Source: a virus | Virus record (IMG/VR): IMGVR_UViG_3300037963_005532 | Span: 1-27,669 of that record | Length of the DNA: 27,669 bases | Strand: one strand, 5' to 3' | Shown here: piece by piece, positions 840-24,745 of the stretch | Layout of the letters: the number at the start of each line of letters is the position of its first letter | Position numbering within the stretch: the first letter of the stretch is position 1 | The notes under the pieces: model-generated | What the model was told of the DNA's origin: nothing | What the model saw: only the letters and a program-made list of their open reading frames with translations | Database searches by the model: none | Position numbers and translations under genes: made by a program

Positions 840-1053
840 AGGGAAGTTTCAAAAAATGTGTTTCACCCCATGATCATAAGTGATCAAGAGAGATAGCAAA
901 CCGGCAGAGAATAACTGAAGTTACTCAATACCTGCGTTCTGCATGAAGTAAAAAAGATTCACGGGGTGAAAAACAAATCGACGCACTGCGATTATACAGT
1001 GCACAGAAAGCGTGATAGGAGGGATCTCCTCGTATTTGTAACTAACAAGAAAG

Positions 1054-1065
1054 CGAACCGGTTCG
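1054..1065. repeat. 12-bp palindrome CGAACCGGTTCG, copy 1
   Basis: A perfect 12-bp palindrome, repeated exactly at 1555-1566. Because it is self-complementary, the two copies can pair with each other as a long-range 12-bp helix. They can also fold locally, or pair with the same segment of a second RNA molecule. Both lie inside the large structured RNA. Confidence 0.75.
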
Positions 1066-1554
1066 TTCGATGATTACCCTACTAGGGCTCACCTTAGTGT
1101 TAGTTAACTAAGCCGATAGATACCGAGGGCCTTACTGCGGGAACAAGGTTAGTCGGGGTGGTTCAGAGTATTAACTCGCACCGGACACCTTGCCAGACGT
1201 GGGTTTAGTAGAAATTCACTACCACGTCATTGGCTACCCATGCAACTGGGGGGATCGGATACCTCCGGACCTAGTGTTAGTTAAAGGGTGCAAGGGCCAG
1301 GAACTACCTGACTCACTCGGTTCGATAACTAACGGGAGCCCCGTTGGCTGATGGCTGGACTTGGATCAGAAGCGGCGTGGCTTCCGATGGAACTAAGTTA
1401 CAGGATTGCTACCGCTTGGGAAGAATCTTGTGATGGTTTGGCGACTGGCACAGAAGGCGAGTTGCCTGGCGGATGGAAGATCGCGACTCATCTGAGTCCG
1501 TTTCGATCCGTTGCAAGCAACATAGGACCACACCGTGCGTTAGGTCAACCCCTT

Positions 1555-1566
1555 CGAACCGGTTCG
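1555..1566. repeat. 12-bp palindrome CGAACCGGTTCG, copy 2
   Basis: Identical to 1054-1065, about 500 bases downstream and near the 3' part of the structured RNA. A long-range helix between the copies would close the core of the molecule. Confidence 0.75.
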
Positions 1567-1756
1567 GTGATTGTCACACACACTGTGCGCTGCATGTAAC
1601 TAAGACATGAACCAGGTGCGCGTTAATAAATCATACCACCCACCCATCCGTCAAGCCCCTGATACATAAGGGGAACTAATGATGATAGGAACCTTCCCTC
1701 ACCAAGTCACACTAGCCCTTCACATGTGTGCCCACTATGTGTAATTTACCCACCCC

Positions 1757-10089: not shown

Positions 10090-10175
10090 GGGAGTATGCC
10101 GGAATTGGTCTACGGAACGGACTTAAAATCCGTCGAGCTGTAAAGCTCTTGCGGGTTCAAGTCCCGCTACTCCCA
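10090..10175 (+). tRNA. tRNA-Leu (anticodon UAA)
   Basis: The acceptor stem GGGAGTA (10090-10096) pairs with TACTCCC (10168-10174), with discriminator A at 10175. The anticodon stem ACGGA/TCCGT (10117-10121/10129-10133) holds the loop CTTAAAA, anticodon TAA at 10124-10126. A long variable arm (GAGCT-GTAA-AGCTC) marks a class II tRNA, and the T arm carries GGTTCAAGTCC. CCA is not encoded. The tRNA appears intact. It reads UUA (and UUG by wobble), which would suit an AT-rich phage in a host that rarely uses UUA. Confidence 0.95.
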
Positions 10176-10190
10176 TTAAAATTCTTTTCC

Positions 10191-10583
10191 ATGAAGCACT
10201 TCGACAAACCAAACAAAGCTAAAGAAGCAGCAGATAAACGCTGGCTCATGAACAAAGCTGACTTTAACTTTGGGAGACGTAAGTTAGAACTTGCTTGCGA
10301 CGGATGTGGGACCAAATTAATTCGATATTCCCAGAACGTTCGTCTTGAATGCGGGCACGTCTGTAAGGAGTGCAAAAAGAAGATGCCTCAGATGTTTACC
10401 CCTGAGACCACTAGAGGCTCTAAAAACCCGAACGCAAAGCTTACGGAGGATGATGTGCGTTCTATTAAGACTATGCTTAAGGAAGGCGTCAAGCGATTGT
10501 ATATCGCTCAGCAGTATGGTGTTATTTACCACACAATTTATGAGATAGACACTGAACGCAGCTGGAGGCACGTTACTATTTAG
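10191..10583 (+). CDS. Zinc-ribbon plus helix-turn-helix protein, related to homing-endonuclease DNA-binding modules
   Basis: The frame can be read from 10149 inside the tRNA, but the ATG at 10191, 15 bases after the tRNA, is the sensible start and gives 130 residues. Residues 36-39 (CDGC) and 54-61 (CGHVCKEC) form a four- or five-Cys zinc ribbon. Residues 74-128 (RGSKNPNAKLTEDDVRSIKTML, then YIAQQYGVIYHTIYEI and SWRHV) match the HTH module found at the C-terminus of many phage HNH homing endonucleases. No HNH catalytic His/Asn motif is visible, so this looks like a DNA-binding protein or a remnant of a mobile endonuclease beside a tRNA gene. It could also be a small transcription regulator. 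Confidence 0.7.
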   Translation: MKHFDKPNKAKEAADKRWLMNKADFNFGRRKLELACDGCGTKLIRYSQNVRLECGHVCKECKKKMPQMFTPETTRGSKNPNAKLTEDDVRSIKTMLKEGVKRLYIAQQYGVIYHTIYEIDTERSWRHVTI

Positions 10584-18464: not shown

Positions 18465-19985
18465 ATGCCTAGCAGAGAGACGTTTGCATATCGTCGTGCT
18501 TTAAAAAACAAAGCCCAGAAAGCTGTAGAAAGAGATGACTCCAGTATCGATAGTGTATTTTCAAGAGCCCAAGATGATTTTCTGACATTCTGTACTCTGC
18601 TTGATAAACCTCCCGCTGCTCACATGCTTGAGTGGCACAGAGAGCTGATTACCGGAGAGAGCAATAAGTACTTGTTAGATATCGCTGGTCCAAACCTGGA
18701 CATCCTTAGTCCGCGGGGCTCAGCGAAGTCGACCGTTTTAAACCTTTTTACCGCGTGGGTTATCGGGAGACACACCTCTGACGGGAGACCTCTTCAGATT
18801 ATTTACTGTTCGTATAACATCGCCACGGCTATCCCAAAGAGTCGAATTATTAAACAGATTATCGACTCTTCGACTTTCAAGAAAATATTTCCGAAAGTGA
18901 GGCTTAGAGCAGGTATGCAGAGCGATATTGGTTGGTCGATTGACTTTGATTACGCCGGTATTCAACGAGTCGGTGATGAAGAATTCACCCTTCGTGCAGC
19001 GGGTCTAAGGGGTTCGATTACGTCTAAACGTGCTCACCTAGTCATTGTGGATGACCCTATTAAGTCAAGCTCGGACATCAAGAACCCTGCTGTTCGAGAC
19101 GAGATGAATAACAACTGGTCTTCAGTTATTGCACCCATTGTTTTCGAGGGTGGTCGTTGTATTTGCTTGGGTACTCGATTTCATCCTTTGGATATACATA
19201 AAACTATGTTCATTCCTAAGAAAGGGTGGAAGCAAGTTGCACAAGAGGCGCTTACATACGACAACAGCGGTGAACCAATTAGCTATTGGCCTGAGCAGTG
19301 GTCAGTTAATTATTTGCTTGGTCAGAAAGAGTTAGATCCTGTTGCTTTTGCTTATCAGTACCAGCAACAACCGGTCATGACTTCCGACCTTGTGCTATCT
19401 CCTGATTTGCTTATTAAAGGTGAAGTAGAAACAGAGTTTGATACTCTTGCAGTTGGTATTGACCTCTCAGCGAGTAAAAACGAAACGTCTGACTACACAG
19501 CCTTTGTCTTAGGTGGTCGTCTCAAAGATAAATACTACATTATCGACTCTCACCAAGTTCGCTCCATCGGCAACCTGGAGAAGATTGACTTGCTGTGCGA
19601 CATGCTTGTTGAGTGGGGGATTCTCGAACTCCAAGGCGACCAGTATTTTCCTACTTTTTCAACAGTCACGCTTGTTGTGGAAGCTGTTGCTTACCAGGCT
19701 TCGTTGGCTGCTGACCTTAAAAGGGTGTTGTTAGATGAACGAGGCTTAGGTAATCTCCACATCCACGAGGTTAAAGGCTTTCGTGGTGACAAAGTCGCAC
19801 GTTTTAGAGGCACTCTTGGCTTACTGGAGAACAAAAAAGTAACATTCAATAAGTTCAGAAAGTTTGAGGCTCTTCACGATCAAATACTTAATGTTGGTGC
19901 TACTTCTCACGATGACTTACTAGACGCATACACTCACTTAATCGCTTATCTCCAGAAACGAGGCAACTACAACATCGAGTATTGA
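18465..19985 (+). CDS. terL: Terminase large subunit (packaging ATPase and nuclease)
   Basis: ATG at 18465; 506 residues, a usual length. The N-terminal ATPase has Walker A SPRGSAKST (82-90) and Walker B LVIVDDP (192-198), followed by CLGTRFHP (234-241), the likely coupling motif. The C-terminal RNase H-like nuclease shows its acidic residues in GIDLSASKNETSDYTA (D333), LVVEAVAYQ (E406) and HDDLLDAYTHLI (D483, D484, D487). It pumps DNA into the prohead through the portal and cuts concatemers. The stop overlaps the next ATG by one base. The candidate small subunit lies 2.4 kb upstream, separated by minus-strand glycan genes. Confidence 0.96.
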   Translation: MPSRETFAYRRALKNKAQKAVERDDSSIDSVFSRAQDDFLTFCTLLDKPPAAHMLEWHRELITGESNKYLLDIAGPNLDILSPRGSAKSTVLNLFTAWVIGRHTSDGRPLQIIYCSYNIATAIPKSRIIKQIIDSSTFKKIFPKVRLRAGMQSDIGWSIDFDYAGIQRVGDEEFTLRAAGLRGSITSKRAHLVIVDDPIKSSSDIKNPAVRDEMNNNWSSVIAPIVFEGGRCICLGTRFHPLDIHKTMFIPKKGWKQVAQEALTYDNSGEPISYWPEQWSVNYLLGQKELDPVAFAYQYQQQPVMTSDLVLSPDLLIKGEVETEFDTLAVGIDLSASKNETSDYTAFVLGGRLKDKYYIIDSHQVRSIGNLEKIDLLCDMLVEWGILELQGDQYFPTFSTVTLVVEAVAYQASLAADLKRVLLDERGLGNLHIHEVKGFRGDKVARFRGTLGLLENKKVTFNKFRKFEALHDQILNVGATSHDDLLDAYTHLIAYLQKRGNYNIEY

Positions 19986-22528: not shown

Positions 22529-24745
22529 ATGACAGCTTCCATCGATGTCCGTAGTCAGTTTGAAGAGATTTTAGAGGCAGCTCGCACTCAAGATCGTTCT
22601 AATCAAGCTGCAACGATGGTGGTCTTGAGCCATCTACAGCAGATGACTCTTCTGATGATCAAGAAGGGTCTGTCTTTTTATTGTGATCAAGATACGTATA
22701 AATCCAGAACTAGGTTTTTAAACGACGTTATTGAGCTGAATAGGTTAGATATTCGTTTCCCTGCGATTATTCGTAACTTTTTAATCGATGGTTGCGGACT
22801 TTTTTACTTTAGACCTGACCCTAAATTGAAATATCAGATCTACTTCTTCAATAAGAAGCAGTATCGGGTCTTTCACGACGCTAACGGTCAGATTGAAGAG
22901 GTCGTAATCATTTATGACTACAAAGTAAAGAACAATAATCTTGGTTTACCGAGTGATGTGTACGGTCAGAACAAGCGTTATGTGCGTCTGAGCATCACTG
23001 CGGATTATATCGTTGAGAACGAGTCCGATACAGAGCTTAGTTTTGAGCTTGAACCTGGCGGTGTTCTTACAGCAGACCGTAAAAGACCGAATTCACTCGG
23101 TTTTGTCCCTGCTGTTGAGGTTTTAAACAAACCAAACGCCAGCGGGACCGAAGGAGAAGGTGATTTCGACCCGTTCATGGAGCAGATTGTGCTTCATGAC
23201 CAGATGATTAAGAATATTTCGAAAAATATCGAGTTTTTCGGCAACCCAACGCTTATTTCGAGTCGACCTAGGTCAGACCTGGTCGAAGCAAACGACTCTG
23301 GTAACACTTTTCGACCCACAATCAGCTCTCAGTCGGGTTTTGCGGGTCAAAATACGCCTTCCACACGGGTTAGTGAGCCTTTTGGCTCCTCGATGGGTGG
23401 TGGGCTGCGTGTTCCACGCATTATTGCCAACGTAGAGCCTTCGGACCGAGTCGGTTACATGACTCCGGACCCGATTAGCGGTGATATGAACCGCTATGCG
23501 CTTCTTTTACGCGAAGAAATCCGTACAGCCCTCGGCGGTGTGGATGAAATCTCTATTTCAGCCGGAGCAACGGCTACAGAGATTAAAGGTTTGATGGGAA
23601 GGGCTCAAGCGACCGCAACGAGGAAGAATAAGAGCTTCCTTACTTATGGTTTCTGTGCTCTTTTGGAAATGATGATTTTCCACCAGGAAAACATCTTCCG
23701 TGAGTCATTTATTGCGGCGATCGGTCTAAAAGAACCAAAAGTCCCTGAAGAACAGACTGAAGAAACCTTTGAGCGTTATCAAAAAGCTCGTTTCCGCTTT
23801 GAGCAGAAACTTGATAAGGAAATGCTCAAAGCTGTCACCGAAAACAAAGTACCAAGGGGTGTCGTTGGTCTTCCTAAAGACGGCGCACGCAACGTCAGTT
23901 ATAGATATCAAGGTGATGTCTATGAAGACACTGCTTACGACGTCCTTCAGAAGTCCATGGTCGTTCGAAATATGCAGGAGTTAGGTGTTGAGAGTGTTGA
24001 AGCTCTTAAATACCTTTTCCCTGATAAAAATGAATCCGAACGTGCCGAAATGTTGAAAGGATTTCCTTTCAGAATGGTTGGACAAGTACAGTCGTCAATG
24101 CAGCAATTCCTGGTATTATTAAACCAGATGTTGCAGTCTCCGCATCCTCTTGCGCCTGATCAACCTTTAGCGGCTGATCCTAGGCTGAATATCACTCCGC
24201 TCCTGTACAGGACATTCGACCATCTTGCGGAAGAACTAACTTATTCCGGTAGCTATGAGCCAGCAGATCCAAGCTTCGATCCCGAGCCCGGTCTCCCCGG
24301 CACCAGCGCCGGTAATCAGCGACCAGGGTTCAACAACAGTCTCACCCCAGCAATGGGTGGTGCAAGGAGCTACCCCGGTGGTAGCTTCGGCTCCTACAGC
24401 CCAACCGCCGTCCCAGGTGGCACCGGCTTCGGACCCTTCTATCAGCAGCCAGTCCAGCCAGTCAACGTTCAGCTCCTCCCCAACCAACCCTTGGGAAGCA
24501 GCGATGGGCTCACTGGAGCGGGTTCTGACTTCCCAGTCACAGTCCCCCAGCCAGGCAGCGTCGTATCCAACCCAGGCTCCACTGCAGGCTACAACACCGA
24601 TCAGTCAGCCTTCACAGGCCCAGCCCTCGGTTTACCAGCAGCCGGTTCAGCAGACCTCGCCTACCAGCGCCTCTCAGACCCAAGCTTCCTCCAAGGGTTC
24701 TACGGACCCGAAACTAAGCGAGGCAAGCGCAGAGGTCGTTCGTAA
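22529..24745 (+). CDS. Portal protein, with C-terminal extension overlapping the scaffold gene
   Basis: ATG at 22529 with a good ribosome-binding site GAGGG at 22513-22517. Residues 1-575 look like a portal: helical start, FLIDGCGLFYFRPDP and FFNKKQYRVFHD clip or wing strands, then VLHDQMIKNISKNIEFFGNPTLI, the long helical stem region with ISAGATATEIKGLMGRAQATATRKNKSF. It forms the twelve-fold ring through which DNA enters the head and to which the terminase docks. Residues 576-738 are Gly/Pro/Ser-rich low-complexity sequence that shares its DNA, in another frame, with residues 1-163 of the scaffold protein. The extension may be real, or the original stop may have been lost. Identity is inferred from fold pattern and position. 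Confidence 0.85.
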   Translation: MTASIDVRSQFEEILEAARTQDRSNQAATMVVLSHLQQMTLLMIKKGLSFYCDQDTYKSRTRFLNDVIELNRLDIRFPAIIRNFLIDGCGLFYFRPDPKLKYQIYFFNKKQYRVFHDANGQIEEVVIIYDYKVKNNNLGLPSDVYGQNKRYVRLSITADYIVENESDTELSFELEPGGVLTADRKRPNSLGFVPAVEVLNKPNASGTEGEGDFDPFMEQIVLHDQMIKNISKNIEFFGNPTLISSRPRSDLVEANDSGNTFRPTISSQSGFAGQNTPSTRVSEPFGSSMGGGLRVPRIIANVEPSDRVGYMTPDPISGDMNRYALLLREEIRTALGGVDEISISAGATATEIKGLMGRAQATATRKNKSFLTYGFCALLEMMIFHQENIFRESFIAAIGLKEPKVPEEQTEETFERYQKARFRFEQKLDKEMLKAVTENKVPRGVVGLPKDGARNVSYRYQGDVYEDTAYDVLQKSMVVRNMQELGVESVEALKYLFPDKNESERAEMLKGFPFRMVGQVQSSMQQFLVLLNQMLQSPHPLAPDQPLAADPRLNITPLLYRTFDHLAEELTYSGSYEPADPSFDPEPGLPGTSAGNQRPGFNNSLTPAMGGARSYPGGSFGSYSPTAVPGGTGFGPFYQQPVQPVNVQLLPNQPLGSSDGLTGAGSDFPVTVPQPGSVVSNPGSTAGYNTDQSAFTGPALGLPAAGSADLAYQRLSDPSFLQGFYGPETKRGKRRGRS

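Follow-up and report, generated by a model that had tools for sequence, protein, structure and literature searches.

To our knowledge, few giant structured phage RNAs are known, and GOLLD, ROOL and OLE all lack a well understood function. GOLLD and ROOL form nanocages that are often encoded near tRNA islands and whose function is unknown; GOLLD combines a conserved 3' region with a variable 5' region, while the solved example of ROOL measures 659 nt (PMC12286853). The long non-coding RNAs (lncRNAs) of the kayvirus phage K, whose expression is known, have been likened to both by their proximity to tRNA genes and their abundance (PMC9241854). Here we describe a locus in an IMG/VR virus record of 27,669 bases (the window, analysed over its whole length) which probably encodes a large, non-coding structural RNA in S-EIV1-like cyanophages, belonging to a class absent from Rfam and transcribed leftward with discrete ends.

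Akin to GOLLD, the element is phage-borne and ornate, some parts of the molecule are conserved and others variable, and its predicted ends place it in the GOLLD length range (above ~800 nt in phage or prophage); unlike GOLLD, it is without a covariance-model match on either strand and is described here from its sequence. With ROOL, which is often found near tRNA genes, it shares the character of a large phage or prophage RNA with a complex fold, but it has no Rfam match, and the 659 nt of the solved ROOL compare with a mosaic element of ~800-1250 nt across phage contigs, as measured between predicted ends. The lncRNAs of phage K are likewise long non-coding phage RNAs, but they come from a staphylococcal phage and are set beside the element by description, not by sequence. 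The element is thus nearest to the GOLLD/ROOL kind in its size, in coming from phages and in its ornate fold, and perhaps it may work like them.

The terminase large subunit of the window is 44% identical to its counterpart in Synechococcus phage S-EIV1, and phage structural genes lie to the right of the locus, so that the label 'cyanophage-like' given in the initial annotation holds. Leftward genes are located at 120-419 and 422-832, the left edge of the gap falls at the leftward gene end (about 767-832) and the first rightward gene starts at 1923. The intervening ~1.1 kb had been described as lacking a credible gene, and we arrive at the same result: the sole ORF (1351-1599, 82 aa) is as long as the mean in shuffled sequence (82), is disrupted in L124 and L127 (homologous loci are labelled in this manner), which are the two closest relatives of this block, by stops and by frameshifting indels whose lengths are not divisible by three, and had no match in a Pfam search. 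In the comparison with L124 and L127 its substitutions are spread across all three codon positions. A conserved protein frame, which the initial annotation had named as a sign against an RNA, was looked for among relatives and none was found across the gap, which by this measure holds no protein-coding gene. Two small hairpins occur at 793-838, upstream of the first leftward gene; at the equivalent place relatives have other stems (GAGGG/CCCTC, GAAGGA/TCCTTC) of the same shape, as judged by eye.

When positions 841-1790 were compared by blastn with the complete records of those contigs that carry a related terminase, 17 of the 49 records matched; 15 of them were retrieved, and in these the matches are colinear and occupy an equivalent place in the genome. 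Additional homologues came from a motif scan, a scan with the right-end module, a search with a small downstream protein and a final motif scan, resulting in 26 homologues and, with the window, 27 distinct sequences, all from IMG/VR phage contigs related to S-EIV1. Wherever the flanking genes are kept, the element lies between the leftward genes and the rightward block. The isolate S-EIV1 (KJ410740) has a related right-end junction module (at ~44440) at the same genome position, but only ~410 nt at the equivalent intergenic place (44032-44440), whose sequence bears no detectable resemblance to the RNA element. When three family members were compared by blastn with 50,697 named phage records, tRNA genes were matched and nothing else, and a related-locus search using two flanking proteins found no relative. 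A genome scan with one RNA motif gave a single match in a verrucomicrobial MAG, which showed no further similarity and was taken as chance.

Divergence among the homologues is rapid and their make-up mosaic, so that two members may be highly identical in some blocks and have nothing in common in others. Between L143 and L125, identity is 93% over approximately the first 420 bases and 83% beyond a stretch at ~425-579 for which no match was reported; at 177-433 of the query the window shows 84% identity to L143, whereas at 410-783 it is closest to L124 and L127, and the final 205 bases are common to L124 and L132 at 94%. In the branch comprising L173, L176 and L177, the short motif TGACAAG is repeated many times and several stems are made of TAACTAAC/GTTAGTTA.

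The folding energy of the region in the window is lower than that of dinucleotide shuffles on both strands (z -3.56 on plus, -5.60 on minus). However, a control stretch within the portal-like gene (23000-23900) also folds unusually well, with z -5.1 on one strand and -3.8 on the other; folding energy alone is therefore unspecific, and the case rests on covariation and comparison. Compared with alignments simulated along the tree, block folds are far lower in energy and contain more compensatory pairs. This is clearest in the left block of the window, where the fold has z -6 to -8 and 16-19 compensatory pairs stand against a null maximum of 13-14, and in L155/L176/L177, with z -12 to -14 and 46-50 pairs against a maximum of 33. 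The second branch of the family was likewise far above controls, on an alignment built without structure. The best supported part is a multi-helix junction domain at 1106-1272 (minus strand), in which 22 of 44 pairs show changes on both sides (62 cells; shuffles average 22.5 cells and 0 of 500 reach 62, while slid controls give at most 8 cells and slid pairs at most 6) and 89% of the cells of the alignment are paired. A covariance model of this domain on the minus strand, R1, built from five members, retrieved six held-out, highly diverged members (the L134-L138/L151/L169 subgroup) at the syntenic place. As the alignment of the domain was fitted to R1, this held-out retrieval and the hairpin at 1196-1228 are the cleaner facts.

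The stem of that hairpin (minus strand; 1196-1202 with 1222-1228, GACGTGG/CCACGTC) can be read directly in each sequence, and relatives have other minus-strand stems: GGTATGG/CCATACC (L124), GACGCGG/CCGCGTC (L128), GGTGCGG/CCGCATC (L138) and GGCGGGG/CCTTGCC (L135). Beside it, a small hairpin at 1166-1177 (minus strand; stem 1166-1169/1174-1177, plus-strand letters GAGT-ATTA-ACTC) keeps its four-base loop in relatives while the stem changes to GTCT/AGAC (L143) or GCGT/ACGC (L124). One small hairpin block, when tested alone, was not significant (z -1.5). In the right-hand 440 bases, no base pair reached significance when all pairs were tested for covariation against a phylogenetic null, probably owing to the small number and mosaic make-up of the sequences. 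Compensatory change among homologues, a signal that the initial annotation proposed to test for, lies far above shuffle and slide controls, as expected for a structured non-coding RNA, and together with synteny and the lack of coding it supports the giant structured RNA claimed there.

The initial annotation had placed this RNA at 861-1741. A structured unit does exist there, but it is better delimited at ~970-1776, where the body of ~800 nt (strand and ends predicted, minus strand favoured) combines the lack of a conserved ORF with 26 homologues and a conserved structure, and 861-970 appears to be a flank of its own on the left. A reported 9-bp stem spanning 100 bases is present (860-868/962-970), but its conservation was not seen in relatives and it is probably outside the RNA. 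The flank includes a palindrome, TGATCATAAGTGATCA (871-886, TGATCA-N4-TGATC(A)), which is kept in many members and is a possible operator.

Within the body, all parts being given on the minus strand, a left arm (1017-1105) with a helix at 1039-1046/1099-1106 is backed by a block alignment of the window, L143, L125 and L128. It contains the 12-base palindrome CGAACCGGTTCG (1054-1065), of which a second copy (1555-1566) lies in the middle part. This middle part (1250-1623) is common piecewise to L124 (76.5% identity) and L127 (81.4%), these identities applying over parts, and gave z -3.7 on plus and -2.4 on minus in a block fold test. The block at the right end (1627-1775) is the most widely shared part among members, with z -2.3 on plus and -7.6 on minus. 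At its left end stands a hairpin followed by a U-rich tract (965-1004, minus strand), a terminator-like 3' end that recurs in many of the members grouped with the window; relatives show compensatory variation in the hairpin (GCGC/GCGC, GCAC/GTGC). On its right, a run of seven T is followed by a junction module (1776-1890) which includes the TATAAT-like CATAATA and is kept in nearly all members; it may be a divergent promoter region where the two arms of the genome meet.

We consider it likely that the RNA lies on the minus strand, although this is only a lean, since a mirrored plus-strand model scores equally well. In each of the 14 members tested the folding z-score is better on minus, although these are not 14 independent tests because the members are related, and the energy gained by allowing G-U pairs is larger on minus in 21 of 25 members; the initial annotation had taken G-U pairs to point to the plus strand, and both counts run against it. 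In the second branch, too, the consensus fold is better on minus, and the hairpin at 1196-1228 has G-U pairs on minus and no A-C. Substitution-type counts equalled their shift control and are neutral as to strand; an apparent excess of A-C, at one point taken as strand evidence, was withdrawn for that reason.

The same RNA could instead be read from the plus strand, starting near 890 and extending rightward as far as the T-run (1776-1782), and we regard this as unlikely. A T-run of 7-8 is found at the identical place in members whose right end is kept, and in three blocks (the window with L124 and L127, L131/L129/L127 and L146/L161) the plus fold is the more significant one; yet most members lack a stable hairpin before the T-run, whereas the left end on minus has the conserved hairpin and U-rich tract, and the z-scores of all 14 members and the G-U pairs of hairpin 1196-1228 favour minus. 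A plus-strand consensus found independently (R2) retrieved none of the held-out members, while plus-strand helices mirrored from R1 (R3) retrieved the same six as R1. The contrast between R1 and R2 was accordingly rejected as proof of strand, as R3 showed that the difference lay in the choice of helices.

It is rather improbable that the element is a long structured 5' leader, with a minus-strand transcript continuing into the leftward genes and regulating them in cis. On minus, the element does lie directly upstream of these genes, and further hairpins precede the first start codon (by eye), but the terminator-like hairpin and U-rich tract stand at its left end, 800-1250 nt would be very long for a leader and the left flank at 861-970 is separate, with its own palindrome.

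That the element belongs to GOLLD or ROOL and has merely diverged far, one of two readings offered in the initial annotation, appears very unlikely, despite the similar size, phage location and ornate fold. The Rfam covariance models of GOLLD and ROOL found nothing on either strand, both in the window and in 20 further loci, the searches covering the window at the gathering score, 700-1950 at E up to 10, 14 loci at gathering and 7 at E up to 5. The other Rfam 15 families, self-splicing introns included, gave tRNA matches alone at the gathering score, and lax thresholds added nothing beyond tRNA and chance matches. Proximity to tRNA genes speaks for a relationship in one subgroup (L134-L138/L151), where a tRNA gene with anticodon CAT, as read from the sequence, is found directly to the right of the element (L134 3278-3350, L135 4464-4536, L151 1179-1251); these genes resemble tRNA-Met/Ile genes of Synechococcus phages. 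The only tRNA of the window, Leu (TAA), is 8.3 kb from the element. The other reading offered there, a new class, fares better, and the best reading of the element is as a new class within the GOLLD/ROOL kind and not as a shown member of either. A DNA element such as a replication origin or a packaging site with secondary structure, to which the position between the two diverging arms of the genome and the failure of substitution-type counts to separate the strands would be congenial, is scarcely credible, as the wobble-type variation in the best hairpin favours RNA and we know of no phage origin that resembles an ~800-nt nested-helix fold with conserved unpaired segments.

A leftward structured RNA at the junction between leftward genes and rightward structural genes would be transcribed from the conserved module at ~1776-1890 and end at the hairpin and U-rich tract at ~965-1004, yielding a transcript of ~800 nt. 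Its modules could be swapped between phages while ends and general position are kept. We speculate, by analogy with what has been proposed for GOLLD and ROOL, that it might serve as an abundant RNA scaffold during lytic infection. The two copies of CGAACCGGTTCG do not co-occur in all members and hence do not form a fixed intramolecular helix; self-complementary segments of this sort could, as a guess, join copies of the RNA. More tentatively, the family may constitute a separate class unrelated to GOLLD and ROOL, in which domains are exchanged like cassettes between fixed ends at a fixed position, giving many architectures that do the same job in infection. An apparently independent class, with 27 sequences and a cultured relative, S-EIV1, sharing the locus, would open another way of asking why giant RNAs are carried by phages, and its mosaic make-up would let conserved parts be distinguished from free ones.

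Two further observations concern other parts of these genomes. At 10090-10583 of the window, the tRNA-Leu (TAA) gene is followed by an ORF with matches to HNH-endonuclease PHROGs and overlaps the annotated start of this ORF. The terminase gene of S-EIV1 (KJ410740, 54080-56617) is ~1 kb longer than that of the window (18465-19985) and matches it in two pieces, possibly because of an insertion such as an intein in the S-EIV1 gene.
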